A stretch of 64,000 nucleotides of DNA. Source: Paracoccus contaminans (lineage in GTDB: Bacteria > Pseudomonadota > Alphaproteobacteria > Rhodobacterales > Rhodobacteraceae). Location: NCBI RefSeq assembly GCF_002105555.1, contig NZ_CP020612.1:2534001-2598000 (forward strand), in the 5' to 3' direction. The position numbers and the translations under genes are program-made. Position 1 is the first letter of the stretch, and each line of letters begins with the position of its first letter. Of the stretch, positions 50,604 through 64,000 are shown piece after piece. The notes under the pieces are model-generated. The model was not told the origin of the DNA and made no database searches. It saw only the letters and a list, made by a program, of their open reading frames with translations.

Positions 50604-50702
50604 GACGATTGCCCGCGCCGCCCCCCGGCCAAGGGCATTTCCCTGACCGCGCGACGTTTTTTCCCTTGTTCCCCCGCACCGCCTGCTGCTAGACCCGCCG
50701 GC

Positions 50703-50792
50703 GGAGTGGTGGCCGAGTGGTCGAAGGCACACCCCTGCTAAGGGTGCAGGCGGGAAACCGTCTCGAGGGTTCGAATCCCTTCCACTCCGCCA
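50703..50792 (+). tRNA. tRNA-Ser (anticodon GCT)
   Basis: This 90-nt class II tRNA has acceptor GGAGTGG/CCACTCC, anticodon stem CACCC/GGGTG around CTGCTAA (GCT), a long variable arm, T arm GAGGG-TTCGAAT-CCCTT, discriminator G and encoded CCA. The accessory region begins directly after it. Confidence 0.97.
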
Positions 50793-51231
50793 TTTGCCCT
50801 CGCGAAAGCGTTCTCTTGATCCGGCTGCGGCCGGATTTTTCCGTTGTATTCGAGGGTTATGCGGGAGGGGCTGAGCACTGGCCCTGGCACCGGGCGGGCC
50901 GGAAGCGGTCTCTCAGGGCCGATATTCTCCGGACCTCATGACTGCGCGAATTTGGTGAATAGCTTGCAACAGATTGAAATTACTTGTTAGTTTTCGACCA
51001 AGTTCCGAACACTTCGACGACAGGGGTGTTCGTTAGATGGAACTGAAATCAAACCCTTCGCAGCGCGATGCAAACGCATGATACCAAGCGCGCGGAGAAG
51101 GTTTTCTTATAGCGGCCCGCCCGCGAGGCCCACTTCCCGGTTGAGGCAGCCCCCACACTATCTCTTGCTGCTTGTGCTTTAACATAAGCGGCTGTTATTC
51201 GTACCACATCCCCCGACCGGAGTGAGTACCC
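50793..51231. other. intergenic region between tRNA-Ser and the PLD endonuclease gene
   Basis: These 439 bases contain a tRNA terminator in the first 50 bases and then a switch, near 50940, from GC-rich to visibly AT-richer sequence that continues through the restriction genes. No gene is supported. The final part supplies the leader and a GGAG ribosome site for the TTG-started endonuclease. A TTGCAA ... TTAGTT pair near 50960 could be a promoter but is weak. Confidence 0.5.
50819..50840 (+). terminator. intrinsic terminator of tRNA-Ser
   Basis: Perfect 7-bp stem ATCCGGC / GCCGGAT with a TGCG loop followed by TTTT, 26 bp past the tRNA. Confidence 0.85.
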
Positions 51232-52626
51232 TTGAGATACATCGACTCAGCATCTCGAAACACGTCTGACGTTCTTGGAGAATGGCTCGCCAGCTTCAGT
51301 CCCCTGGCTGTCGACGCCCTACGTTGGCAAACGGGATACTTTAGTGCAGACGGACTGGCTCCTTTGGCGCCAGTAATAAATGAGCTGAAGTCGCAAGATA
51401 GATTGACGAATTGTGTAATTGGGTCAAACGGCGGAGAAACCGGAGAGCCAGATATCGAAACGCTGGTTAATCTCGTTGGAACCCCAAGAGCAAACGCAAG
51501 GATCGGGGTTGTTAGCTTCTCTGCGGGGCTATTTCACCCAAAGGTATATCACTTCACAAGGCAGGACGGCACTCAGGCCGCCTATGTTGGATCGGCAAAT
51601 CTGACTACGCCGGGCATTTCTGGGATGAACATCGAGGCAGGTTTGCTCTTGGATTCATCGACCGGCGATTCCGATCACGTCCTTTCAGACGTCGCGGCAG
51701 CAATTGACGCTTGGTTCAATGGACCTCGGCCCGGGCTCTCAACTGTGACGGCACTTGCCGACCTCGCACCTCTAGTCGCCGCCGGAGTGCTTGGCGTGGC
51801 CCCTACGCCACGTACAACGCAATCCAGTTCTGGAAGCAGCGGGGCGGCATCAAGCAAAATCGGACTCAAGCCGCTAATCAAGTTCCCCCCTGTCTCGGTT
51901 AAGAGCGGCACTGTAGCAGCTTTGGGTTCAGCGGCAGCAGCGCCTTCCGCCCCGCCCAGCACAGCGACGGTTGCTCCATCTGCCGGACCGCTTACCTCAA
52001 GCCCGCGCCCGCCCTTCCCCCCATATGTACTCTTCGCACCAGGCATCGCGACACCGACACTCGGGGCAGCAGCCTTGACCGGATCCACGCTAGCGGGCGG
52101 CGCTGCTGGATTGGTCATTCGCCTCAACCGAGACAGTGCAAGGCACTTCTCCGGAGGCAGTGGCACAGCAAACGTAAGCGTACCAGTTGCGACCATCGGC
52201 ACGATGAGGTTCGGCGTATTTCAAGGAAAGTATCAGAGGCCTCGCGCCGAGTTCGACCTTCGCATGCGTTATGTCTCAAACTTGGGAGCCTACGAAGTAG
52301 CATCCTCTAGCACCAATGTAATGGTCTACGGATACGCTCCTGGTGAATCTGGCCATGGTGACGTGAGGATGGTCGTGCCGGCCGCGCCTGCTCGTGCCAT
52401 TCGCGATCATGCCGCAGCACACGGATTCCATGTCCCGACAGCAAACGACCCAATGATCTTAGAGTGGCCGACGCCAGCCGATCCAACTTTCAAGGCAACA
52501 TTCATCGATCCAGCTGACCCACTCTTCGCCACGGTAGACGGGATGCTCGCCACTGCTTCAGCCGGTGGTGCGCTCGTGGGTCAAGGTGCGTGCTGGTTAC
52601 CCGCAGGTATTTCGCCGAACTGGTAA
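51232..52626 (+). CDS. phospholipase-D-fold restriction endonuclease, BfiI-like
   Basis: This 464-residue protein has a catalytic N-terminal domain with a single PLD-type site: FHPKVYHF (His102, Lys104), YVGSANLT (Asn123) and NIEAG (Glu135). The residue set and spacing closely parallel the metal-independent type IIS enzyme BfiI (His105, Lys107, Asn125, Glu136). One site per chain implies a dimer. Residues about 175-290 are an Ala/Pro/Ser/Thr-rich low-complexity linker, after which a C-terminal domain (MRFGVFQGKYQRPRAEFDLR and on) would be the DNA-recognition part. The start is TTG with GGAG 9 bp ahead. Its end faces the two methyltransferase genes 24 bp away. Restriction is inferred from fold and context; the recognition site is unknown. 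Confidence 0.75.
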   Translation: MRYIDSASRNTSDVLGEWLASFSPLAVDALRWQTGYFSADGLAPLAPVINELKSQDRLTNCVIGSNGGETGEPDIETLVNLVGTPRANARIGVVSFSAGLFHPKVYHFTRQDGTQAAYVGSANLTTPGISGMNIEAGLLLDSSTGDSDHVLSDVAAAIDAWFNGPRPGLSTVTALADLAPLVAAGVLGVAPTPRTTQSSSGSSGAASSKIGLKPLIKFPPVSVKSGTVAALGSAAAAPSAPPSTATVAPSAGPLTSSPRPPFPPYVLFAPGIATPTLGAAALTGSTLAGGAAGLVIRLNRDSARHFSGGSGTANVSVPVATIGTMRFGVFQGKYQRPRAEFDLRMRYVSNLGAYEVASSSTNVMVYGYAPGESGHGDVRMVVPAAPARAIRDHAAAHGFHVPTANDPMILEWPTPADPTFKATFIDPADPLFATVDGMLATASAGGALVGQGACWLPAGISPNW

Positions 52627-52650
52627 AAACAACGATTGAAGATCGGCGTG

Positions 52651-54138
52651 CTATTCTTTCCGAAGTATGATCAGCGTTTCTGCTGCAACCGCATTACTCA
52701 CATGATATCCGTAGCGCCGGTAGGTTTGCAGCGGAATGAGTTCTTCTACTTTCCAGCCGACCGCATTAGCCAGTCGCGACAAGTGTTCGGGGGTATCGAT
52801 GTCATGACGAACGCCCCCGATTGTAGTGTGGTTGTGGCCAACAATCAAAGCGTAGGGAGCTCCCTCTCTCATCAGCCTGTTCACTGAGCTGAAGTTTGCT
52901 TTCATCGACGCGAAGTATCGATACAGAAGCGACGGAACGGCACGCCTGCGAAACCCGTCTTCTTCACCGAGCAAATCCTCGAGCTTGATGCAAAGTTCGT
53001 ACTCTTGATCCGGCAATTCTGCCTCGTTTGATGCGAGCAATTGAGGCAGTTCCCGCTTTGAGTTTCCACGAAGCTCTCTACTTCCGATCAGTGATGCCTC
53101 GAGTTCGAGAATTTGATTGGGCGCCAGGAGATCAAGCCAAACCAACGAAAGGCGTTGCGTGTCAATATACGGGAGTGCCATGGCATATGGCGGGCTGGTA
53201 ATGGCGGCATCGAACTTCCGCATTGCGCTATCTGCCGTCAACTCGGATACGTCACAGAGTACCGCTCGACCGAGAGGTGCCCGTGAACCAATGAGTTCTC
53301 GCGCGGAAAGTATCCGATCAATAATTTGTGGAAGCGCATCCAAGAGCGCAGATGTGAACGAATTCGACGGAAGTGGCGAGGTCCTCCTCCTGATCCGCAA
53401 GTCTCGTGGGTCCTGCTGGGAATACTCACGAAGAAGGTTGCTAGCTACAGATAGAAAAATTGGCGACATCTCGCCGGCAATGTCGAGGATGATGGCCCGA
53501 ACGCCTTCGATTTCGTCGTAGATTTCAGGATCAAACCATTTCAGTAGGTATTCGCGACGCGCAGCAGAAGACTGAGGGGCTTTCCTTCCATCAAAAGATC
53601 GAAGCTGGGCCGAAATGTTCTTGTGCGCTTTTCGGAGTTCACAGGGCGGGACCGACAAGCCAAGTAGCTTTGCGTTCGACAAGAAGACTGCGAGTGGATT
53701 TATGTCAGTGCCGACCGCGTCGACACCCAAATGGCAACACTCAATGAGAGTCGTGCCGCTACCACAGAACGGATCAAGGACAGTCTGCCCAGGCTCAACC
53801 TTGAAAATATTAAGAAGCGCCTTGGCGACTTGCGGATTAAATTTCCCTTTGTATTCATGCAGGCCATGAACTGAATAACGTGTCGCCTGGCGGTTTTTTC
53901 CGTTTCGTGCCGTTTCCTCCAGCTCAGCTTGCACCGTTGAAGTAAACCCAGAGCCATTCTCGTAGCCCTTGAAATAGGTCAGGCGTTCCGCTCCGGAACC
54001 GGGCCTTGCTTCGCGCAAATCCAGGCCATCTTGTACTTCATTGGCTCCTGACGGGCAGATCAGTGAAGTCACCTCCCGAGAAGCGAGCTCTTTCTCGTAG
54101 GGGTAGTACTTGTAGTTATGCCAACGGAGCCGCATCAC
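52651..54138 (-). CDS. DNA methyltransferase, SPPY type (second of pair)
   Basis: This 495-residue amino-methyltransferase has the AdoMet motif LDPFCGSGTT at residues 121-130 with TDINPLA following. The catalytic motif TSPPY is at 314-318, in the order AdoMet site then SPPY. SPPY is common in N4-cytosine methyltransferases, though N6-adenine cannot be excluded. The HEYKGKFNPQVAKALL block before the AdoMet site matches the equivalent PYPAKFIAEIPRAL of its partner. The start overlaps the partner's stop (ATGA). A pair of distinct methyltransferases beside one endonuclease fits a system with an asymmetric recognition site, each enzyme treating one strand. Confidence 0.85.
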   Translation of the reverse strand: MMRLRWHNYKYYPYEKELASREVTSLICPSGANEVQDGLDLREARPGSGAERLTYFKGYENGSGFTSTVQAELEETARNGKNRQATRYSVHGLHEYKGKFNPQVAKALLNIFKVEPGQTVLDPFCGSGTTLIECCHLGVDAVGTDINPLAVFLSNAKLLGLSVPPCELRKAHKNISAQLRSFDGRKAPQSSAARREYLLKWFDPEIYDEIEGVRAIILDIAGEMSPIFLSVASNLLREYSQQDPRDLRIRRRTSPLPSNSFTSALLDALPQIIDRILSARELIGSRAPLGRAVLCDVSELTADSAMRKFDAAITSPPYAMALPYIDTQRLSLVWLDLLAPNQILELEASLIGSRELRGNSKRELPQLLASNEAELPDQEYELCIKLEDLLGEEDGFRRRAVPSLLYRYFASMKANFSSVNRLMREGAPYALIVGHNHTTIGGVRHDIDTPEHLSRLANAVGWKVEELIPLQTYRRYGYHVSNAVAAETLIILRKE

Positions 54139-55319
54139 TCGACCTCCTTCCGCAGCACCAAGACGGTTTCTGTCTTAATGTTTGCATGAGAAAGGTTGAA
54201 TGATTTTCGGTTCGCTGACAGTTCCCGCTCTGTTACGAAGAACGGAGTGAAGCCAAGCGGTGCAGCTTCATCTGTGATGATTTCCGAGTTGTCGTAAATC
54301 TTCCCATGGATCTTCGAGCGGCCAACCACGAAACTTGCAAAGCCCCCCTTCACCAACACGTTTCCCAGAAGCTTTAGCGTCTGTCTCATTTGCCGTGCAA
54401 AATCTTCGGCCGTGTGGTGGTTCTTCTTGAAGAAGTGAGCCCGCGCACCAATCTCGTCAGCTTTCACCTTCAATGGGTCATACCCCAACCACCACATCCG
54501 GTATTTGTGATAAAGCCAATACTCATATGCGTTCGGGTATGGAGGAGATGTTACGACCAATCCAATCGGTCGCCCAATCATGCTCGGCTCTACCTTCAGG
54601 ATGTCGTTCTCAATTACATCCACGGAGGTCAAGGGATATGGTCTATTTTGGAGAGCGGCGTTGATGCGGTTGACCGCGCGCAAAAAAAGCGTGGGGACGG
54701 CGGAAGGATCGATATCCTTCTGTACCGCCGCATATCGGGTATCGCTTTCCTGATTAGAGACTCTGACAATAATACTCGAAAGTGCTAGCTTCAGCGCATC
54801 GCGAGCCTCACTTGGGGAAGTCGCGATAGAACGAGCAATCTTATTGATCTCCACCTGGACATTTGGCTGGAACCAGTGATCAAGATTAGGAATTTCAGGA
54901 ATCTCGCCATCAGAAGCTGTCTCTGAGCTCGCTACAATCCGAGCAGCAAGCTGCTCGATATCGGTCGGGCAGGCCGAGGTCTTAACGCGAGACATTAGGC
55001 AAGCGATTGGGTTCAGGTCGACTCCGACAGCGGGAATGCCTAGTCGCTGGCTTTCAACTAAACTGCTACCGCTCCCGCAGAACGGGTCCAGCACACCGCT
55101 GTGGGGAGGCAGTGGCAAGCAGTTGATGAGTGCTCGCGGGATTTCCGCAATGAATTTGGCAGGATAAGGGTGGACGCCTTCGATCTCGCTATGGCTGCGC
55201 CGATCGGGGAAGCCCCAATCAACCTCTGACAAAGACGACCTTGCTGCTGTTTCCGGATCTAGCGAAGCTGACCAGCTATCCGTCTTTTGGGGGGTGGGTT
55301 CGTGTGTTCCGTGCGCCAT
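54135..55319 (-). CDS. DNA methyltransferase, SPPY type (first of pair)
   Basis: This 394-residue amino-methyltransferase has LDPFCGSGSS at residues 77-86, VDLNPIACLMSR after it, and the catalytic TSPPY at 257-261 followed by PNAYEYWLY. It shares architecture with the downstream gene but little detailed sequence, so the two are not recent duplicates. The start overlaps the stop of the ribbon-helix-helix gene (TAATG) and the stop overlaps the next methyltransferase (ATGA), so all three are translationally coupled. Base composition is AT-richer than the core genome. Confidence 0.85.
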   Translation of the reverse strand: MAHGTHEPTPQKTDSWSASLDPETAARSSLSEVDWGFPDRRSHSEIEGVHPYPAKFIAEIPRALINCLPLPPHSGVLDPFCGSGSSLVESQRLGIPAVGVDLNPIACLMSRVKTSACPTDIEQLAARIVASSETASDGEIPEIPNLDHWFQPNVQVEINKIARSIATSPSEARDALKLALSSIIVRVSNQESDTRYAAVQKDIDPSAVPTLFLRAVNRINAALQNRPYPLTSVDVIENDILKVEPSMIGRPIGLVVTSPPYPNAYEYWLYHKYRMWWLGYDPLKVKADEIGARAHFFKKNHHTAEDFARQMRQTLKLLGNVLVKGGFASFVVGRSKIHGKIYDNSEIITDEAAPLGFTPFFVTERELSANRKSFNLSHANIKTETVLVLRKEVE

Positions 55320-55531
55320 TAGTGGTCTTCTCTTTGCGGGCGCACGAACGGGAGCGAGCCTTGATCTATTGTTGGTTCGACGCGATTGAGGAAGTCCACG
55401 ACCGCCTTTCGAGCAACCTGCGCCACCGGGGCGTCGTCACGCTCCGCGAAGGCGAGCAACAGGGCGTACGCTCGTTCGTCCAGGTTAATCGTGACCCTGG
55501 CTGTCTTCGTTCGTCCCTTCGGTCGCGCCAT
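55319..55531 (-). CDS. small ribbon-helix-helix (CopG/Arc-type) DNA-binding protein
   Basis: This 70-residue protein has a basic N-terminus (MARPKGRTKTARVTINLDE) whose RVTINL forms the beta strand that inserts in the major groove. AYALLLAFAERDDAPVAQVARKAVVDFL makes the two helices. It resembles CopG/Arc-type repressors. Coupling to the first methyltransferase through TAATG suggests it regulates the modification/restriction genes, replacing the HTH controller proteins of many R-M systems; this is inference. The gap to the recombinase operon upstream is only 44 bp, so transcription could also read through from there. Confidence 0.75.
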   Translation of the reverse strand: MARPKGRTKTARVTINLDERAYALLLAFAERDDAPVAQVARKAVVDFLNRVEPTIDQGSLPFVRPQREDH

Positions 55532-55575
55532 GATGTGTGTTTAGTGCAGCAAAAAACGGTCAGCAAGTCGTATTC

Positions 55576-55974
55576 TTACGTCATGCGGCTATTGCGAAGG
55601 GAAGGCAACTGGTCGTTCCACTCCACCGGGAACGGCTCCATCACCCGCACCAGCGTCACCAATGGCCCCTGCTTCCCGTCCAGGATCGCCTCGACGATGT
55701 CGGGCGCGAGCAGTGTCAGACGCAGGACGCGGGTCATGTAAGAGGGCGCAATCCCCTCGCGCTCGGCCAATTCGGCGACCGTTGCGTACTCGCTAGACTC
55801 CAGCATCCGCTTCCAGCGAAACGCGCGGGCCAGTGCCTTGACGAGTGCGTCATCGGGGCGGCGCGGGGTGGACGCGCCTTCGGGCAACTGCATCTCCTTC
55901 CGCCCCCCACGCTTCACGAGGCGGAACGGGACATGGATGGTGACAGTATCGGGGACCGGGGTGGCGCGGGTCAT
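55576..55974 (-). CDS. HTH protein of the recombinase operon
   Basis: This 132-residue protein has a ParB/KorB-like helix-turn-helix in the middle: TVAELAEREGIAPSYMTRVL, residues about 66-85, followed by LTLLAPDIVEAILDGKQ. The N-terminal part (VTIHVPFRLVKRGGRKEM) is conserved wording in proteins found after this type of recombinase. The start overlaps the recombinase stop (ATGA). It may repress the operon or act as a recombination directionality factor; neither is shown. Confidence 0.75.
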   Translation of the reverse strand: MTRATPVPDTVTIHVPFRLVKRGGRKEMQLPEGASTPRRPDDALVKALARAFRWKRMLESSEYATVAELAEREGIAPSYMTRVLRLTLLAPDIVEAILDGKQGPLVTLVRVMEPFPVEWNDQLPSLRNSRMT

Positions 55975-57293
55975 GCGGCTGCTCCTATGTCGGCGGTGAT
56001 TTCGCGCGCCAGCCCGGCCAGTCCGTCCATACGCAGCCGGACGTTCAGGCCTTCCGTGACGATCTCGACCCGCTCGACCAGCAGCGCCACGATGCGCGCC
56101 TGCTCGGCCGGGAACAGATCGTCCCACAGCGGGTCGAGCCGAATCAGCGCCGCGCGCGCGTCGGCCTCGGTGATCTCACCGTACTGCACCCGCGCCGCCT
56201 TCCATGTGCCCGCGACAATCTCAGGCTGGCGGAACACGGCGCGCAACTGCTCGATGACGGCCGCTTCGATCTCGCCGGCGGGCACGCGGCCGATGGGACA
56301 CGACGCCGCGCCATGCTTCAGCACCGTCTGGCTGACGTAGTAGCGGTAGAGCCGCCCGGCCTTGCGCGTGTGGGTCGGCGAGAAGGCCGCGCCGTCGGGG
56401 CCGTAGAGCAACCCCTTCAGCAGCGCGGGCGTGTCGGCGCGCGTGCGCGCGGCGCGCTTCCGGGGGCTCTCCTGCAGGATGGCGTGAACCTTGTCCCACA
56501 GCTCGCGGTCGATGATGGCGTGGTGCTCGCCGGGATAGCTGTCGCCCTTGTGGACCGCCTCGCCGATGTAGGCGCGGTTGCTGAGCATCCGATAGATGTA
56601 TTTCTTGTCGATCCGGTTGCCGCGGGGCGTCCGAAGTCCCCGCGTGCCGACCTCCCGCGCCAGTTCCGTGCAGGACCCGATCTCGAGGAAGCGGGCGAAG
56701 ATCCAGCGCACATGCGCAGCGTGCTCTTCGTCGACCACCAGCTTCCGGTTCTCGACACGGTAGCCGAAAGGCGGCACCCCGCCCATCCATATGCCCTTCT
56801 TCCGGCTGGCGGCGACCTTGTCGCGGATCCGCTCGGCCGTGACCTCCCGCTCGAACTGGGCGAAGCTGAGCAGGATGTTCAGGGTCAACCGCCCCATCGA
56901 CGTGGTCGTGTTGAAGGACTGCGTGACCGAGACGAACGTCACGCCATTGCGGTCGAACACCTCGACCAACTTGGCGAAGTCGGCCAGGGAGCGGCTGAGG
57001 CGGTCGATCTTGTAGACCACCACCACTTCGACCAGCCCGTCCTCGATGTCCTCCAGCAGCCGCTGCAGGCCGGGGCGATCCAGCGTGCCGCCGGAGATGC
57101 CGCCGTCGTCATACTGATCGCGGACGAGTACCCAGCCCTCAGACCGCTGGCTGGCGATGTAAGCCTCGCAGGCCTCGCGTTGGGCGTGGAGCGAGTTGAA
57201 CTCCTGCTCCAGTCCTTCCTCGGAGGATTTCCGGGTGTAGACCGCGCAACGCAGCTTGCGTACGAGCTTCGATTTATCCGGCGGCTTCGTCAC
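55971..57293 (-). CDS. large serine recombinase
   Basis: This 440-residue recombinase has an N-terminal resolvase catalytic domain with YTRKSSEEG and the nucleophile at Ser23. DQYDDGGISGG, VYKIDRLSRSLADF and FAQFEREVTAERIRDK are the family motifs. The recombinase domain (WIFARFLEIGSCTELAREV, YIYRMLSNRAYIGEAVHKG) is followed by a zinc-ribbon-like region around GLLYGPDGAAF and a C-terminal tail. It is shorter than phage integrases of 500-600 residues because the coiled-coil region is reduced. GTG 57293 overlaps the DUF2924 stop (GTGA). It probably integrates or excises the element; the attachment site is not visible. Confidence 0.92.
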   Translation of the reverse strand: MTKPPDKSKLVRKLRCAVYTRKSSEEGLEQEFNSLHAQREACEAYIASQRSEGWVLVRDQYDDGGISGGTLDRPGLQRLLEDIEDGLVEVVVVYKIDRLSRSLADFAKLVEVFDRNGVTFVSVTQSFNTTTSMGRLTLNILLSFAQFEREVTAERIRDKVAASRKKGIWMGGVPPFGYRVENRKLVVDEEHAAHVRWIFARFLEIGSCTELAREVGTRGLRTPRGNRIDKKYIYRMLSNRAYIGEAVHKGDSYPGEHHAIIDRELWDKVHAILQESPRKRAARTRADTPALLKGLLYGPDGAAFSPTHTRKAGRLYRYYVSQTVLKHGAASCPIGRVPAGEIEAAVIEQLRAVFRQPEIVAGTWKAARVQYGEITEADARAALIRLDPLWDDLFPAEQARIVALLVERVEIVTEGLNVRLRMDGLAGLAREITADIGAAA

Positions 57294-57745
57294 TTCCGCC
57301 CCCTGTGGTTCTTGAGCCCGAAGAAGACCCAGCCGTTCCAGCGCGTGCCGGTGATCGCGCGGGCGATCGCGGACAGCGACTTGTACGGCCGCCCCTGCCA
57401 TTCGAAGCCGTCAGCGGTGACCGTGACGATGTATTCGACGCCCTGCCATTCGCGCAGGAGGCGCGTGCCGGTGATGGGGCGATCGCGGTCGAGGCGCATG
57501 CCGCGCTTCTTCTTGTCGCCTCCGTCCAGTTCCTCGCCGAGCCGTTCCAGCCGCCGGATCGTCTCGGGCTTCAGCCCGCCATAGGCGAGTTCCTGGATGC
57601 GATAGGCGATGCGGCTTTCGAGGTAGCGGCGGTTGAACGGCGGCGGCTCGCTGTCGAACAGGTCGCGCCACTGTTGCTTCAGGTCGGGCGTCGGTGTGGT
57701 CTTGAGCGCGGCCAGGCGCGCGGGGATGGGATCGGGCTTATTCAT
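57290..57745 (-). CDS. DUF2924 protein
   Basis: This 151-residue basic protein has FNRRYLESRIAYRIQELAYG and GVEYIVTVTADGFEWQGRPY, then SLSAIARAITGTRWNGWVFF. This is the DUF2924 pattern, consistently found just before this recombinase type in alphaproteobacterial elements. The C-terminal module resembles small DNA-binding wings. ATG 57745 has GGAG upstream and overlaps the preceding small gene's stop. It may be a recombinase accessory factor. Confidence 0.85.
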   Translation of the reverse strand: MNKPDPIPARLAALKTTPTPDLKQQWRDLFDSEPPPFNRRYLESRIAYRIQELAYGGLKPETIRRLERLGEELDGGDKKKRGMRLDRDRPITGTRLLREWQGVEYIVTVTADGFEWQGRPYKSLSAIARAITGTRWNGWVFFGLKNHRGRK

Positions 57746-57945
57746 GCATTTCTCCGGTGAGTTGGAGTTGCATGACGGCATTGGTCGGGCGGATAGTGTA
57801 GGCAACGTTCTCCAGTATCGTCAGATACTTCGCCCGTCTCCCGCATCCGCAACCGGACCAGCCCGAGCGCCAGCAGGCCGCACAGCTCGGCGCGACGCTC
57901 TGCGGGCGTCATCTGGTCGGGCGGGAGGGGGTTGGGGCGTTTCAT
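57742..57945 (-). CDS. small protein leading the recombinase operon
   Basis: This 67-residue protein has a conserved-looking helix (MTPAERRAELCGLLALGLVRLRMRE). Similar short proteins precede DUF2924 and the recombinase in related elements. The stop and next start overlap as ATGA. No domain or function is recognised; the regular position suggests it is real. Confidence 0.65.
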   Translation of the reverse strand: MKRPNPLPPDQMTPAERRAELCGLLALGLVRLRMRETGEVSDDTGERCLHYPPDQCRHATPTHRRNA

Positions 57946-57984
57946 GCGGGCCTCGGAGTGGTCGTCTCCTCTGGCCTCTACTCA

Positions 57985-57996
57985 TCGCGATCGCGA
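57985..57996. promoter_or_regulatory. 12-bp perfect palindrome in the divergent promoter region
   Basis: TCGCGATCGCGA lies 40 bp before the recombinase-operon start and 114 bp before the plus-strand operon. Its place between divergent operons suits an operator, but self-complementary GC-rich words also arise by chance. Confidence 0.3.
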
Positions 57997-58109
57997 ACCG
58001 TCCCATGGCCGCTGTCAGTGCACGGATCGCGCCCATCTGGACTCGACTCAGGGTTGTTCGGACTGCTAGAACATAGAGTGAACAATCAGGTCTGAAAGAA
58101 AGGGGTTCC

Positions 58110-59345
58110 ATGGGTTCCGACATCAAGAAATTCGTAAATCCGAAGTTTCTCAACAGCATTGATGTCGTGCTCATGCGCGACCTCTTCGCTCGCCATTTCA
58201 AGGACGAAGGTCTCCCTGTCGCGTTCGATGGCGACGTCGCCGAGATTCGCAAACGGATCACCGACTATTTCGCGACACCGATCACCGAATGGTCCGAAGG
58301 CTTGATCGCCGATCTGCATCGGGTCGCCGAACTTGGGACCGGCGAAGGAATGCAGCTCATTCTGAACGAGGCCAGGCGCCAACGCGTTGTCCTCTATTCC
58401 GAGCCAGACGACGAAGAGGCCGACTCGGCTCCGGTAAAGCACGAGCCCAAGCATGTGGCGCTGCACGCCTATCTGCATCATCACCGGATCTTCGAGGCGG
58501 CGGCCGATTTCCAGGCGCTGCGGGCGCCGACCGCGATGGCGGAGTTTCGCGGGCCGCAGCGCGATGTCGGAGCCGATCTGACGGAGGAGGCGTCGGCGGC
58601 ATTCAAGGCCGCCATCGTGAAGCTGTTCGCGCAGGACCTGCAGGGCGATTACTGCCGTCTCGGCCCTTATGAGGAGGATGGCGAAATCAACCTCGTCGTC
58701 AGCCATGGCGCGCCGGTGACGACCACGCCCATCGTGGCGGGCGACCGCGAACAGATCATCACCCTGCGAGCGGTGAAATATGCGGCGCTCCGCTATTCAT
58801 CGAACGAAGGGCTCTTGCGCATCGGCGGCGTGCCGAGAGCGCAGCAGGCCGAAGTGGCGGGCATCTTTGCCGAGCACATTCTGGGGCGCCCCGGTTTCTT
58901 CGCAGGCAAGGACGCGCGCGATCTCTACACCCTCGATCCCATCACAGCATTCGGTCCGGATTTCGCATTCCAGCATGCGTTCGACGAGAGGATCCTCGAA
59001 GTTCGGATCGTGGCGGCAGCGGCCGATTTCTTCGCCGAGGATGAGGATGGCGAGTGGCGTTATGTGCGCAGTTGGGAATCGAAGGACGCATCCGGCGCGG
59101 CGCTCCGGCATTTCAAGGCCAGCGAGGTGCGGTTCGGCCGCGGGTGGCGCCTGGGAGAAATCACGTTCCGGGTGTTTTTCAAGAGCGATGCGAAACAGCC
59201 CGCCAAGGTGACCGTGCGTTTGAAGCCGCCCGGCACGCTCGCCTTCCGTCGCACCCGGTTCGAAAAGGCGATCCACGCACTGGTCGCGCGCAACGGACTC
59301 GAGAAGGATCGCGATGCTGATCTGGTTGTGGAAGCGGCTGAGTAA
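58110..59345 (+). CDS. uncharacterised 411-residue protein
   Basis: I do not recognise a family. Residues 1-75 are helical (DIKKFVNPKFLNSIDVVLMRDLF). An acidic linker near 105-115 follows, and residues 145-400 look like a mixed alpha/beta globular region. No nuclease, ATPase or membrane motif is apparent. The ribosome site AAAGGGG precedes the ATG. It overlaps the following winged-helix gene by 32 bp, so the two are expressed together and probably work together. Composition is GC-rich, like the recombinase side of the element and unlike the restriction genes. A defence, regulatory or host-takeover role is possible; none is supported by motif. Confidence 0.6.
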   Translation: MGSDIKKFVNPKFLNSIDVVLMRDLFARHFKDEGLPVAFDGDVAEIRKRITDYFATPITEWSEGLIADLHRVAELGTGEGMQLILNEARRQRVVLYSEPDDEEADSAPVKHEPKHVALHAYLHHHRIFEAAADFQALRAPTAMAEFRGPQRDVGADLTEEASAAFKAAIVKLFAQDLQGDYCRLGPYEEDGEINLVVSHGAPVTTTPIVAGDREQIITLRAVKYAALRYSSNEGLLRIGGVPRAQQAEVAGIFAEHILGRPGFFAGKDARDLYTLDPITAFGPDFAFQHAFDERILEVRIVAAAADFFAEDEDGEWRYVRSWESKDASGAALRHFKASEVRFGRGWRLGEITFRVFFKSDAKQPAKVTVRLKPPGTLAFRRTRFEKAIHALVARNGLEKDRDADLVVEAAE

Positions 59346-60255
59346 CGGCGGGGCTGAGGCCAGTGTCTCCGGCCGAGCGCTGCGCCGCTTCCCCGCGCGG
59401 GAGATCGAAGGGCTGCTTCGGGCGCGGGTTCTGATCGAGCAGCGGAAGGCCGACAGCTGGTCCGTCTGCGTGCATTGCGACTGCGGGCTCGATGCACGAC
59501 CGATCCGTGCCGTAGGAGATCGGCTACTTGCCTGCTGTCCGCGCGACGTCGCAGCGGACGTGGTGCTGGAGCCGGACGACCTCCGCCGGTTCGGGATAGA
59601 AGCCGACAAACTGATCTCGGCCATAGCAGCATCCGGCGGATTGCTGGCGGCGGCCACTGTCGTTTCGGACGGGCTGTGGCTGCTGGGACGGCTGCCAACG
59701 GGTATCTGCGTCTTTCTCTGCCGCGAAACGCATGTGCTGATGGCGCCTGCCACCATCCTCGCGACCAGGATGGCCGCCGGATCGGCACCCATCACCATCA
59801 TCACCATCGAACTCGACCCGGCAACCGAACTGCAGTTGCGTGCGGCCGGTATCGAAGCCCGCTCGCTCACCGAATGCGTTCTGGTGGACGATCACGGCAC
59901 GGAACATCTTGCGCTTGACCGACTCTCGTCGATCGCCGTCACCGCGCCCCGCCTTGTCCTGAGCCGGAGCCGCCAGTCGGCAATGTTCGACGGACGCCGC
60001 CTCGATCTCACGCCGCAGATGTTCGCACTGATCCGGCTTTTCGCGGAACAGGCCGGGCAGCGCGACCCCGTGCTGCGCAAGGAGACCATCGACGCGCAGA
60101 CCGGGCGTCCGGCGAACGAGATCGTGCGGGATCTGCGCAAGGCTCTGGTCGGATGCGGCCTGTCGCGGGCGGCCGCCGACGCCCTGATCGTGACCGTGCG
60201 TGGCTACGGCTATCGCCTCGGCATCGCTCCCGCAGAGGTGGCCGTCGAGGACTGA
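59314..60255 (+). CDS. cysteine-cluster protein with C-terminal PhoB/OmpR-like winged helix
   Basis: This 313-residue protein has at its N-terminal end a cysteine group CVHCDCG ... CC (residues about 51-75) that could bind zinc or another metal. A middle alpha/beta region with hydrophobic strands (TGICVFLCRETHVLMAP) follows. The last 90 residues carry an OmpR/PhoB-type DNA-binding fold: FDGRRLDLTPQMFALIRLFAE, NEIVRDLRKAL and the hallmark VRGYGYRLG near the end. There is no receiver domain. AAGGA stands just before the ATG, inside the preceding gene. It is likely a transcription factor working with the 411-residue protein; the signal is unknown. Confidence 0.65.
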   Translation: MLIWLWKRLSNGGAEASVSGRALRRFPAREIEGLLRARVLIEQRKADSWSVCVHCDCGLDARPIRAVGDRLLACCPRDVAADVVLEPDDLRRFGIEADKLISAIAASGGLLAAATVVSDGLWLLGRLPTGICVFLCRETHVLMAPATILATRMAAGSAPITIITIELDPATELQLRAAGIEARSLTECVLVDDHGTEHLALDRLSSIAVTAPRLVLSRSRQSAMFDGRRLDLTPQMFALIRLFAEQAGQRDPVLRKETIDAQTGRPANEIVRDLRKALVGCGLSRAAADALIVTVRGYGYRLGIAPAEVAVED

Positions 60256-60364
60256 GTCCTCCGCACACAATCCACACACAACAAGCACACGCCAAACACA
60301 CCGAAAGCGTCGGCGGGTCCGGCAGTCTTGGAACAACAGCAATGATGTTCCGAGGCACCTGGAC

Positions 60365-60958
60365 ATGCACCCACCGATTACCCCCGCCGACCTTTCCACG
60401 CTGATCGCTGAAGCCGATGCCGCAGCGCGCCGTCTGCGCCGCAAGCTGGTTCTGCCCGCCACCGATCATGACGATCTCCGCCAGGACCTTCTGGTCGACC
60501 TGATCTGCCGCCTGCCTGGCTTCGACGCGCGGCGCGGCAGCATCGGCGCTTTCGCAAACATCGTCCTGCGCAACCAGTCCGCACGGATCGCGATGCGCCA
60601 TCACCGCCAGCGCCGTGCGCAGGGTGGGTCGCTGCTCTCGCTCGAGCTGCCGTTGACCGGAGACCGCGAGCCGGTCGGCGACACGCTGACCGAGGACGAC
60701 GGGCTTGCCGCCTGGCACGGCCAGATCTGCTGCGCCGCCGCTGTCACTGAACTTCACCACGCCCTGCAGGCCGCCCTCGCGCGGCTGCCGACCGAGGATC
60801 GCCGGTTCTGCGCGGCGCTGGCGCATCGCCCCGTCACCGCGCTCGCGGCCGAGGGTTTCGGCAGCCGGTCCGCGCTCTACCGCCGCCTCGCCGATCTCCG
60901 CCACGTCCTCACCGTCCACGGTCTCGGTCCCGCCTGGGACGATCTCGCGGCGGCCTGA
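60365..60958 (+). CDS. sigma-70-like factor carried by the element
   Basis: This 197-residue protein resembles a small ECF-type sigma. DHDDLRQDLLVDLICRLPGF followed by RRGSIGAFANIVLRNQSARI matches region 2. LPTEDRRFCAALAHRPVTAL and GFGSRSALYRRLADLR resemble region 4 with its HTH. An Arg-rich connector lies between. ATG 60365 has GAGG upstream; longer in-frame starts exist. It may direct transcription of the following phage-like genes or act as a DNA-binding adaptor only. No anti-sigma gene is adjacent. Confidence 0.7.
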   Translation: MHPPITPADLSTLIAEADAAARRLRRKLVLPATDHDDLRQDLLVDLICRLPGFDARRGSIGAFANIVLRNQSARIAMRHHRQRRAQGGSLLSLELPLTGDREPVGDTLTEDDGLAAWHGQICCAAAVTELHHALQAALARLPTEDRRFCAALAHRPVTALAAEGFGSRSALYRRLADLRHVLTVHGLGPAWDDLAAA

Positions 60959-60980
60959 GTAGAGGCGAAAGGAGGAGATC

Positions 60981-61334
60981 ATGTTCATGGGCACCACCCC
61001 CTTCATCACGGTCCGCGCCCGCCGACCGCTCACCGAGATCGAGTTCTGCGCCTGGGTGGCGCAGGCCGTGCCGGGTGACCGGCTCGAATACCATCGCGGC
61101 TTTCTGGTTCTCGACATCTTCCCGATGTTCGCCCGGTTGCCGGATCCGCAGCGCGCGGAACTGGCACGGCTCGGGTCGCGCGCCTTCTGGGCCGCCGAAC
61201 AGGGCCTCGTGCACCTGGTGCAGGAGCGCACGGGCCCCGACCAGTTCGCCTACATCGCCGTCGCCCGCCCCAAGCCGAAGGCCGCGGCAGTCTCGCTGTC
61301 CGCGCTCCTGCTCGCCGAGCAAGAGGCCGCGTGA
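60981..61334 (+). CDS. small phage-type protein, winged-helix-like
   Basis: This 117-residue protein is preceded by an excellent AAAGGAGG ribosome site. The middle (LARLGSRAFWAAEQGLVHLVQE) looks like the recognition helix and wing of a small winged-helix fold, but no family is assigned. The stop and next start overlap as TGATG. It heads the recombination/replication gene set. Confidence 0.6.
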   Translation: MFMGTTPFITVRARRPLTEIEFCAWVAQAVPGDRLEYHRGFLVLDIFPMFARLPDPQRAELARLGSRAFWAAEQGLVHLVQERTGPDQFAYIAVARPKPKAAAVSLSALLLAEQEAA

Positions 61335-61867
61335 TGACCGCCTTCCAATCCCTTTTTGCCGATCACGGAGACCCGTACATGCCGTTCCCCACGAACACCC
61401 CCGCCGTCGACGACCTGCCGGGCCTCGGCCTGCAGGACATCGCCCAGCTGCCCGTCGAACTGCTGGCCATCCTTCAGCGCGAGCTCGACGAGCGCATGGC
61501 GCGGACCAAGGCCGCGAAGGCCCGCCTCGATGGCGCGCTGACCGTCCGCTACGCCACCCGCGCCGCCGAGGAACGGCAGGCGGCGGGCAAGGACACAGGC
61601 ACGATCCGGTTCGACGACGGCGATTTCACCGTGGTCGCCGATCTGCCGAAACGGGTCGATTGGGATCAGGATCGCCTCGCCGCCATGGTCGAGCGCATCA
61701 CCGCCGCCGGGGACGATCCCGCGCAGTATGTCGACATCGCCTTCAAGGTGCCCGAGCGCAAATACGCCGCCTGGCCCGATGCGATCCGTGCCGGGTTCGA
61801 GCCCGCGCGCACCGTCCGGCCCGGCACGCTGAAGATCGAGATCGTCCCGCAGGGGGCCGATCAATGA
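61334..61867 (+). CDS. uncharacterised phage-module protein
   Basis: This 177-residue protein has no signal or membrane segment. Residues 55-75 are helical (LLAILQRELDERMARTKAAK). The second half has a compact alpha/beta look with KVPERKYAAWPDAIRAGFEP. Proteins of this kind occur just before Sak4-like ATPases in related prophages, so a recombination accessory role is possible. Start and stop overlap both neighbours by 1-4 bp. Confidence 0.6.
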   Translation: MTAFQSLFADHGDPYMPFPTNTPAVDDLPGLGLQDIAQLPVELLAILQRELDERMARTKAAKARLDGALTVRYATRAAEERQAAGKDTGTIRFDDGDFTVVADLPKRVDWDQDRLAAMVERITAAGDDPAQYVDIAFKVPERKYAAWPDAIRAGFEPARTVRPGTLKIEIVPQGADQ

Positions 61868-62736
61868 GCCTCCCGATCATCAGCGCCGACCAGCGGCTGG
61901 CCGAGCCGCGGGGCATCAAAGGCTGCATCTTCGGCAAATCCGGCATCGGGAAGACCTCGCTCCTCTGGACGCTGAACGCGTCGACCACCCTGTTCATGGA
62001 TCTCGAGGCGGGCGATCTCGCCATCGAGGGCTGGGCGGGGGACAGCATCCGGCCGCGAACCTGGACGGAATGCCGGGATTTCGCGGTGTTCATCGGCGGG
62101 CCCAACCCGGCGCTGCGCGACGAGCAGCCCTACAGCCCCGCGCACTACAGAGCGGTCTGCGACCGCTTCGACGATCCGACAGCACTCGACCGCTACGACA
62201 CGATCTTCGTGGACTCGATCACCGTCGCCGGGCGGCTGTGCTTCGGCTGGTGCAAGGGTCAGCCCGAGGCGCTGTCGGAGAAGACCGGCAAGCCGGACGT
62301 GCGCGGGGCCTACGGTCTGCACGGCCGCGAGATGATCGGCTGGCTCACGCATCTCCAGCACACGCGGGCGAAGAACGTCTGGTTCGTCGGGATCCTCGAC
62401 GAGAAGCTCGACGACTTCAATCGCAAGGTTTTCCAGCCGCAGATCGACGGCTCGAAGACCGGGTTGGAGCTGCCGGGGATCGTCGACGAGGTGATCACCA
62501 TGGCGGAGCTGAAGGCCGATGGCGATCCCTATCGCGCCTTCGTTTGCCAGACGATCAACCCCTGGGGCTTTCCGGCCAAGGACCGCTCGGGGCGTCTGGA
62601 TCAGGTCGAGGAGCCTCACCTCGGCCGCCTGATGACGAAGATCCGCGCCCCCGTCGCACCAGCGCCCAAGCGCCTGACCTACACGCCGCCGCCCGCCGAT
62701 CCGGCGGCTGACGCCCAATCCCAACCGCAATCCTGA
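61864..62736 (+). CDS. Sak4-like phage recombination ATPase (AAA_24)
   Basis: This 290-residue RecA-fold ATPase has Walker A GKSGIGKTSL near residues 22-31, FMDLEAGDLAIEGW after it, and Walker B DTIFVDSITVAGRL near 118. It matches the phage nucleotide-binding family that includes Sak4-type single-strand annealing recombinases. The C-terminal 30 residues are Pro/Ala-rich. It overlaps the preceding gene (ATGA) and precedes a putative ssDNA-binding protein and a helicase, a standard phage recombination set. Confidence 0.82.
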   Translation: MSLPIISADQRLAEPRGIKGCIFGKSGIGKTSLLWTLNASTTLFMDLEAGDLAIEGWAGDSIRPRTWTECRDFAVFIGGPNPALRDEQPYSPAHYRAVCDRFDDPTALDRYDTIFVDSITVAGRLCFGWCKGQPEALSEKTGKPDVRGAYGLHGREMIGWLTHLQHTRAKNVWFVGILDEKLDDFNRKVFQPQIDGSKTGLELPGIVDEVITMAELKADGDPYRAFVCQTINPWGFPAKDRSGRLDQVEEPHLGRLMTKIRAPVAPAPKRLTYTPPPADPAADAQSQPQS

Positions 62737-62755
62737 TCAGAAAAGGAGGTTCCCC

Positions 62756-63385
62756 ATGGGTTCCTGGAACGATTTCAACGACGCGCAGAGCAACAGCAAC
62801 CTGATCCCGAAGGGCACGCTGGCCAAGGTGCGCCTGACCATCCGTCCGGGCGGTTTCGACGACGCCTCTCAGGGCTGGACCGGCGGCTATGCCACCCGCG
62901 GCTCGACGGGTGCTGTCTATCTGAACGGCGAGTTCACGGTGACCGAGGGGCAGTACGCCCGGCGCAAGATCTTCACGCTGATCGGGCTCTACAGCCCCAA
63001 GGGACCGGACTGGGCGAACATGGGCCGCAGCCTCGTGCGCGGCATGCTGAACTCGGCCCGCGGGATTTCCGACAAGGACATGTCGGCCGAGGCGCAGGCG
63101 GCGCGGCGCATCAACGGCTTTGCCGATCTCGACGGGATCGAGTTCATCGCCCGCATCGACATCGGCACCGACGCCAGCGGCGACGACAAGAACGAGATCC
63201 GTAGCGCGGTCACGCCGGATCATCGCGATTACGCACAGGTCATGGGGACTGCACCGCTGCAGTTCGGCGGACACGGTGCAGCCGGGCACGCCGCGCAGCA
63301 CACCACCCCTGCGGCACCGGCACATCAGCCCAGCCAGCCCGCTTCCGCCCCCGGGTTCGCCGGTCGGCCGAGCTGGGCGCAGTAA
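62756..63385 (+). CDS. DUF669-like putative single-stranded DNA-binding protein
   Basis: This 209-residue protein resembles DUF669 phage proteins: NLIPKGTLAKVRLTIRPGGF, VYLNGEFTVTEGQYARRKIF and GPDWANMGRSLVRGML, then a conserved ARIDIGTD strand. The C-terminal 45 residues are Gln/His/Ala/Pro-rich and flexible, as in SSB tails. AAAGGAGG precedes the ATG. Position between a Sak4-like ATPase and a helicase supports an ssDNA-binding role; not proven. Confidence 0.75.
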   Translation: MGSWNDFNDAQSNSNLIPKGTLAKVRLTIRPGGFDDASQGWTGGYATRGSTGAVYLNGEFTVTEGQYARRKIFTLIGLYSPKGPDWANMGRSLVRGMLNSARGISDKDMSAEAQAARRINGFADLDGIEFIARIDIGTDASGDDKNEIRSAVTPDHRDYAQVMGTAPLQFGGHGAAGHAAQHTTPAAPAHQPSQPASAPGFAGRPSWAQ

Positions 63386-63399
63386 GGGGGAGACCGGCC

Positions 63400-64000
63400 A
63401 TGCGCCTGCGCCCCCGCCAGAAGACCTTCGTCGAGCGTAGCGTTGCTGCGCTCGCCTCCCGCGGCAACACGCTGGGCGTGGCGCCCACCGGCGCGGGCAA
63501 GACCATCATGCTCTCGGCGGTCACAGGCGAGATGATCGGCGACGGCGCCAAGGCCTGCGTGCTGGCCCATCGCGACGAGTTGACGGCGCAGAACCGTGCC
63601 AAGTTCCAGCGCGTGGTGCCGGGCGTCGCCACCTCGGTCATCGACGCCACGGAGAAATCGTGGGGCGGCCAAGTCGCCTTCGCCATGGTGCCGACGCTGG
63701 CACGGGCTTCGAACCTCGCCGACATGCCGCGCCTCGACCTGCTGGTCGTCGACGAGGCGCACCATGCCGTCGCCGACAGCTACCGCCGCATCATCGACCG
63801 CGTGCGCGAAGCCAATCCCGACGCCCGCATCTTCGGGGTCACGGCGACGCCGAACCGTGGCGACAGGAAGGGCCTGCGCGAGGTCTTCGACAATGTCGCC
63901 GACCAGGTGCGGCTGGGCGAGTTGATCGCCTCGGGCCACCTGGTGCCGCCGCGCACCTTCGTCATCGATGTGGGCGTGCAGGACGAGTTGCGGTCCGTCC
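63400..64000 (+). CDS. DEAD/DEAH-box helicase (partial, cut by window end)
   Basis: The first 200 residues of a superfamily 2 helicase are present: Walker A APTGAGKT near residues 29-36, motif II VVDEAHH near 116-122 and motif III-like VTATPNRG near 147-154. The remainder lies beyond the window. It starts at an ATG with AAGGGGGAGA upstream and is the last visible gene of the phage module. It may serve replication or recombination of the element. Confidence 0.85.
   Translation, partial: MRLRPRQKTFVERSVAALASRGNTLGVAPTGAGKTIMLSAVTGEMIGDGAKACVLAHRDELTAQNRAKFQRVVPGVATSVIDATEKSWGGQVAFAMVPTLARASNLADMPRLDLLVVDEAHHAVADSYRRIIDRVREANPDARIFGVTATPNRGDRKGLREVFDNVADQVRLGELIASGHLVPPRTFVIDVGVQDELRSV

Follow-up and report, generated by a model that had tools for sequence, protein, structure and literature searches.

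We analyzed a 64,000-nucleotide stretch of the Paracoccus contaminans chromosome (contig NZ_CP020612.1, positions 2,534,001 to 2,598,000; hereafter the window) containing three adjacent genes, which we call R, M1, and M2 (Table 1). Genes and fold predict, with high confidence on our part, that R, M1, and M2 form a BfiI-type restriction-modification system, most likely of type IIS. The trio is real and, judged by sequence and predicted fold, probably working. What the analysis shows is the predicted fold of R, its active-site residues, the gene order, the co-inheritance of the three genes, the covariation of B3 domain and methyltransferases among relatives, and, in a congener that has diverged in its flanking DNA, a copy that is almost identical. 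The restriction system itself is an ordinary example of an already known kind of immune system; the more interesting lead is the family of cassettes to which its carrier belongs.

R resembles BfiI in its active site and predicted fold

BfiI functions as a homodimer that has a single catalytic site, and its C-terminal domains resemble B3 transcription factors. An earlier note on this DNA had placed a BfiI-like locus at 51232–55531, which is correct, the end taking in ~200 bp upstream of M2; GGAG stands just 5′ of the R start (by eye). In a Pfam scan, R residues 30–143 matched RE_NgoFVII (PF09565) at 37.1 bits (cut-off 23.8; E 2.5e-9), and the residues outside this region, including the C-terminal half, gave no Pfam match. 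A phmmer search of PDB sequences with R (E up to 1) returned a sole match, BfiI (2c1l), and, counting along that alignment, H102, K104, N123, and E135 of R correspond to BfiI positions 105, 107, 125, and 136. These are the residues that the earlier note had singled out; they lie where it placed them, align with the BfiI active site, and show no variation among the aligned relatives (81 of 81). H102-x-K104 is the only HxK in R, and the protein has a single HxK...N...E site per PLD (phospholipase D) chain.

For the fold comparisons, we used an AlphaFold2 model of P0001, which is the counterpart of R in congener G007 (mean predicted local distance difference test score, pLDDT, 89.7). BfiI (2c1l) was the best Foldseek match in the PDB (E 1.9e-11), the top four rows were all restriction enzymes, and BfiI ranked above NgoAVII in both fold comparisons. 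The predicted model of the R family resembles BfiI in both halves, and R is thereby predicted to carry a B3-like DNA-recognition domain at its C terminus, as BfiI does. Because the Pfam match exceeds its cut-off and the Foldseek match reaches such an E value, the link between R and BfiI is well beyond chance. The model falls below pLDDT 50 at residues 192–207 and 225–249, and R residues 190–261 correspond to 45–105 amino acids (median, 71) in the 81 relatives. Of the new architecture claimed earlier, the linker is indeed long, and the supposedly distinct C-terminal domain is B3-like.

It could instead be proposed that R is not site-specific (a PLD lipase, an accessory protein like DrmC of DISARM systems, or a methyl-dependent nuclease) and that M1 and M2 are orphan methyltransferases. 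The automatic name of some homologues, "phospholipase D family protein," points this way, as do weak DrmC matches and the phospholipases and other PLD proteins further down the fold lists. Nevertheless, we regard this proposal as scarcely credible. The DrmC equivalog NF038319 scored 15 bits against a threshold of 133, and the DrmC identity was rejected on that ground; the lipase identity was rejected given the B3-like domain of the model, the co-inheritance of R with M1 and M2, and the restriction enzymes at the top of the Foldseek list.

M1 and M2 are diverged paralogues convergent to R

Both genes stand convergent to R, as the earlier note had described, with 24 bp between the R and M1 stops, and the TGA stop of M2 overlaps the possible M1 start codons. 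M1 matched the PADLOC model MTase_II PDLC03377 (6.6e-146) and M2 matched MTase_II PDLC03364 (1.1e-127), each over nearly its full length, and N6_N4_Mtase was matched at 41.9 and 47.3 bits, respectively. Motif I precedes SPPY in the relatives of both proteins and, by eye, in M1 and M2 of the window; the SPPY motif is a sign of N4-cytosine methylation, which is also the activity of the BfiI methyltransferases. Matches of M1 and M2 in the PDB were spread over several methyltransferase kinds. Each query also matched the other's gene in relatives' loci at 24–33% identity, which indicates diverged paralogues; the two had been called dissimilar, which is right insofar as they have diverged and wrong if taken to mean unrelated. 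A pair of diverged paralogues would fit a scheme of one methyltransferase per strand. Two separate methyltransferase genes lie by R in the window and in 10 of 10 complete type-A relatives (defined below).

Recognition domains covary with their methyltransferases

A protein search found at least 323 relatives of R (the best 120 of 323 were listed), and one scan of genome contigs yielded 19 R loci (L009–L027). Ten of these (L009–L017 and L021) are of type A, that is, with an R carrying the same C-terminal domain as in the window, and in all ten M1 and M2 have the same order and orientation. In type B (L019 and L020), the PLD domain is kept alongside another C-terminal domain and diverged SPPY methyltransferases, and type C (L022 and L027) combines a third C-terminal domain with D12-class and N6_N4-class methyltransferases. 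A fourth C-terminal domain occurs in L025, where R is preceded by an Eco57I-like methyltransferase and followed by an MrfA/HRQ1-like helicase; the remaining loci (L018, L023, L024, and L026) are broken or truncated by contig ends. When the C-terminal parts of searched relatives were clustered (172 proteins, of which 11 were excluded by the motif used in the script and 2 were too short), seven clusters of 121, 24, 7, 4, 1, 1, and 1 members emerged. Overall, R relatives retain the PLD module, and the B3 type varies jointly with the methyltransferase type.

Full-length R was found in only 2 of 36 same-genus genomes, G007 (99%) and G031 (85%), and a third, G003, had a short, weak match; in a family-wide draw, 6 of 394 genomes, the host (G000) counted, had any R match. 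The protein search of phage and plasmid collections with R gave no match. A scan of viral contigs gave three loci (L040, L041, and the distant L042), of which L041 has R with a diverged M1 and a piece of M2. As a separate observation, the arrangement at L025:8244-13934, a PLD-type R between a methyltransferase and a helicase, could represent a form of the PLD family that depends on ATP.

Observations that weigh against a BfiI-type system

Several results speak against our assignment. Direct sequence similarity between R and BfiI is weak (phmmer E 0.085), and searching PDB sequences with profile A1 of the R family did not recover BfiI; the evidence that ties R to BfiI thus comes from Pfam, phmmer, and fold. 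The modelled P0001 differs from R at two residues (147 and 199), and the predicted template modeling score of the model is 0.53, for which reason its domain arrangement was not trusted. Further, R apparently occurs, altered or short, without its methyltransferases: on viral contig L040 an open R frame of 495 codons (L040:2688-4172) matches the family only to residue 384, and neither M1 nor M2 is present in the 11.9 kb examined, and at L032 in genome G211 the R frame has 306 codons, with no M1 or M2 in the 3.7 kb examined.

A further difficulty is that R.NgoAVII, which has the same two folds, needs an ATPase to cut, according to PMC4267653, and fold alone is hence no proof of ATP-independent cleavage. 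R could accordingly be of the NgoAVII/CglI type, binding its site and depending on a separate ATPase for cutting. We consider this very unlikely, since such systems are described in PMC4267653 as having a C5 methyltransferase and an adjacent helicase gene, whereas the trio has two SPPY methyltransferases that match N6_N4_Mtase. A motif scan, the sole method used for helicase-like open reading frames (ORFs), of the 4 kb around type-A loci found no candidate ATPase partner in 10 of 11 loci (the window and nine of ten relatives), where sequence was available; L014 has one helicase-like ORF upstream, which counts against our assignment. With two SPPY methyltransferases, with the 4 kb around the trio in the window free of helicase-like ORFs, and with BfiI ahead of NgoAVII in the fold comparisons, the NgoAVII-type identity was rejected.

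A BfiI-type locus could also be inactive in this host, a mere passenger of its cassette, and broken copies are indeed known (L018 and L023). We think this unlikely, because the R, M1, and M2 frames are all open, all four catalytic residues are retained, and the stretch is 99.8% identical in another species.

The trio lies in a probable serine-recombinase cassette at a tRNA-Ser gene

Judged by comparison of sequences, the BfiI-type trio looks to be the cargo of a cassette that spans 50777–57950 of the window, lies beside tRNA-Ser, and also contains genes for a serine recombinase and a DUF2924 protein. The GC content of the trio is 0.515–0.565 per kb compared with 0.649–0.756 across the 7 kb upstream. 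A block of 6503 bp (50654–57155) is 99.8% identical in G007, whereas the 2-kb left flank is 77.9% identical, which points to recent transfer; the right flank of G007 gave no match longer than 100 bp in the stretch compared. The recombinase of this near-identical cassette (G007:C1:3100639-3101823) matches only residues 82–476, and the G007 cassette therefore looks truncated on the right.

In G031, the cassette block (L067) is 83% identical between 50777, a position within the final 16 bases of tRNA-Ser, and 57949; L067 is probably the same place as L009. A second G031 copy, L066, shares both cassette ends and has different cargo. The left end (50777–50970), matched in many congeners, is 80–91% identical in 21 sister cassettes and 85–86% identical in L009, L010, and L011; it also stands upstream of R in L010 and L011 and, partly, in L018 and L023. 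Matches to the serine recombinase (E ≤ 0.001), many of them distant, were found in at least 57 of 61 same-genus genomes, the host counted. No direct repeats were detected at the cassette ends (no common word of ≥11 between 50690–50990 and 54000–64000) and the left-end pattern occurs once only in the window, so the right end is set solely by loss of similarity (57949 with L067, 58004 with L066). No published description of the cassette family was found in the literature searched, most subscription papers being outside the reach of that search.

Most of the sampled sister cassettes carry other defense-like genes

Among the matches listed, left-end and recombinase matches are paired in many congeners (pairs by eye). 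We sampled 21 sister cassettes (L066 and 20 others, L069–L088), picked for having both ends and not at random, seven being from G022 and four from G462. In all 21, the two ends are present, 5.0–12.3 kb apart. A tRNA-Ser lies directly upstream in 9 of them, with four different anticodons; the other 12 (L069, L072, L073, L075, L077, L080, L081, L083–L085, L087, and L088) have a common alternative context, without tRNA-Ser, before the same CCC...CTCCGCCA core. This context may be the right end of an earlier cassette or a second site class.

In 17 of the 21, PADLOC models match the largest ORF of the cargo at 1e-15 or better; most of these ORFs encode type I or III restriction-modification proteins, one an Hma helicase, and one a ZorD-like helicase; the matches in L069, L075, and L079 are partial and possibly generic. 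Where the largest ORF is unmatched, the second ORF of L070 and L085 matches type III restriction-modification models, and L081 (MCRA family) and L074 (copper oxidase, cation efflux, P450) have other functions. As controls, we chose 18 stretches, most of them lying 60 kb off in the same genomes, and scanned the largest ORF in each; 1 of 18 matched PADLOC (Fisher p 2e-6 against 17 of 21), the control ORFs being somewhat shorter (446–1322 versus 514–1401 amino acids), one control stretch measuring 3.6 kb, and second ORFs being scanned in cassettes alone. L069 (G000:C1:2655000-2664700) is a second cassette in the host genome, outside the window, whose cargo comprises an Eco57I-like methyltransferase, a T5orf172/ResIII protein, and a 706-amino acid protein without a Pfam match. 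Two large cargo genes, L085:5112-8921 (no PADLOC match at 1e-15) and L069:5556-7673 (the protein without a Pfam match), are candidate undescribed defense genes.

Table 1. Features of the R/M1/M2 locus and its cassette (window coordinates; aa, amino acids)
Feature	Position	Strand	Evidence
tRNA-Ser (GCT); its 3′ end is the left cassette edge	50703..50792	+	ARAGORN; Rfam tRNA 50703-50789
Conserved left end of cassette family, beginning in last 16 tRNA bases	50777..50970	+	sister-cassette identity
R, predicted PLD-B3 restriction endonuclease, 464 aa, TTG start	51232..52626	+	ORF; PF09565; predicted model; Foldseek
R residues 1-185, PLD nuclease domain	51232..51786	+	
Active-site stretch of R	51535..51636	+	H102 51535-51537; K104 51541-51543; N123 51598-51600; E135 51634-51636
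R residues 191-262, Pro/Ala/Ser-rich linker, mostly disordered	51802..52017	+	low pLDDT
R residues 263-464, B3-like recognition domain	52018..52623	+	
M1, SPPY methyltransferase, 495 aa, start GTG 54138 or overlapping ATG 54135	52651..54138	-	
M2, SPPY methyltransferase, 394 aa	54135..55319	-	
Small ORF of recombinase module, start uncertain	55576..56127	-	relatives in L009, L010, L012; no Pfam match
Large serine recombinase, 476 aa	55971..57401	-	Resolvase, Recombinase, Zn_ribbon_recom domains
DUF2924 protein of recombinase module	57290..57805	-	PF11149 1.7e-52

Proposed mechanism and significance

By analogy with BfiI, R would probably dimerize through its PLD domains, two HxK half-sites joining into a single active site that works without metal. 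The B3 domains of both subunits would bind a short asymmetric sequence, and cleavage would occur outside the bound site via a covalent phospho-histidine step, at a position that the long linker may shift. M1 and M2 would each methylate one strand of the site, probably at cytosine N4 given the SPPY motif, and so protect the host. Comparison with related genomes suggests that the trio was carried to the tRNA-Ser 3′ end by insertion of its cassette through the serine recombinase.

We give about even chances to a broader proposal, namely that small, site-specific cassettes form a family not described before, with the trio as one of its interchangeable cargoes, and that PLD-B3 genes likewise swap their recognition domain and methyltransferases. 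Such cassettes would be found in this genus and in other alphaproteobacteria related to it, and some genomes would have several. Each would begin on the left at the 3′ end of a tRNA-Ser gene or at a site of a second class and would end on the right with the serine recombinase, the DUF2924 gene, and the small ORF, with 5–12 kb of mainly anti-phage genes between; together they would serve as a common, swappable store of immune systems. At the scale of the gene, the nuclease module would stay constant while the recognition domain is exchanged along with the methyltransferases.

The covariation of recognition domain and methyltransferases and the carrying cassette are the parts worth following. 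For restriction biology, they offer a large BfiI-like family with a constant PLD module and jointly varying recognition domain and methyltransferases, in which related enzymes with different targets can be looked for and the rules that set the cut site compared with the length of the linker. If defense is the main cargo of the sister cassettes, their unannotated cargo genes are candidates for new defense systems, and the spread of immune systems in these bacteria becomes testable.

Comparison with known systems

Elements of the staphylococcal cassette chromosome (SCC) type likewise join serine recombinases to exchangeable cargo, including restriction systems; the present cassette differs from them in its place at tRNA-Ser 3′ ends and in pairing the recombinase with a DUF2924 gene. 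A DUF2924 gene also follows a large serine recombinase in Wolbachia prophage WO, as PMC11376236 reports, so the pair is not unique to the cassette. There, it begins a whole prophage, whereas the pair in the window borders a cargo made up of a few genes beside tRNA-Ser.

Overall, the earlier note was right about the BfiI-type reading and, the long linker apart, wrong about novelty, since PLD restriction enzymes, which it called rare, are "far from rare" in print. PF09565 (RE_NgoFVII) reflects the shared PLD domain, above its cut-off with coverage limited to R residues 30–143. NgoAVII and CglI (GCCGC) share with R a PLD and B3 endonuclease; according to PMC4267653, they have one C5 methyltransferase and require a DEAD-family ATPase, whereas the methyltransferases of the trio are two and of the SPPY kind, and no gene for an ATPase lies close to it. 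BfiI/BmrI (ACTGGG, type IIS; PDB 2c1l and 3zi5) shares with the trio a PLD domain with one HxK...N...E per chain and a B3-like C terminus. According to PMC4267653, the BfiI system consists of R and two methylases, M1 and M2, one for each strand, so that the set of two methyltransferases is shared as well and is no mark of novelty; BfiI, too, has no ATPase. R differs from BfiI in its length (464 versus 358 amino acids, with a disordered linker of ~70) and in having little sequence identity with it away from the active site.
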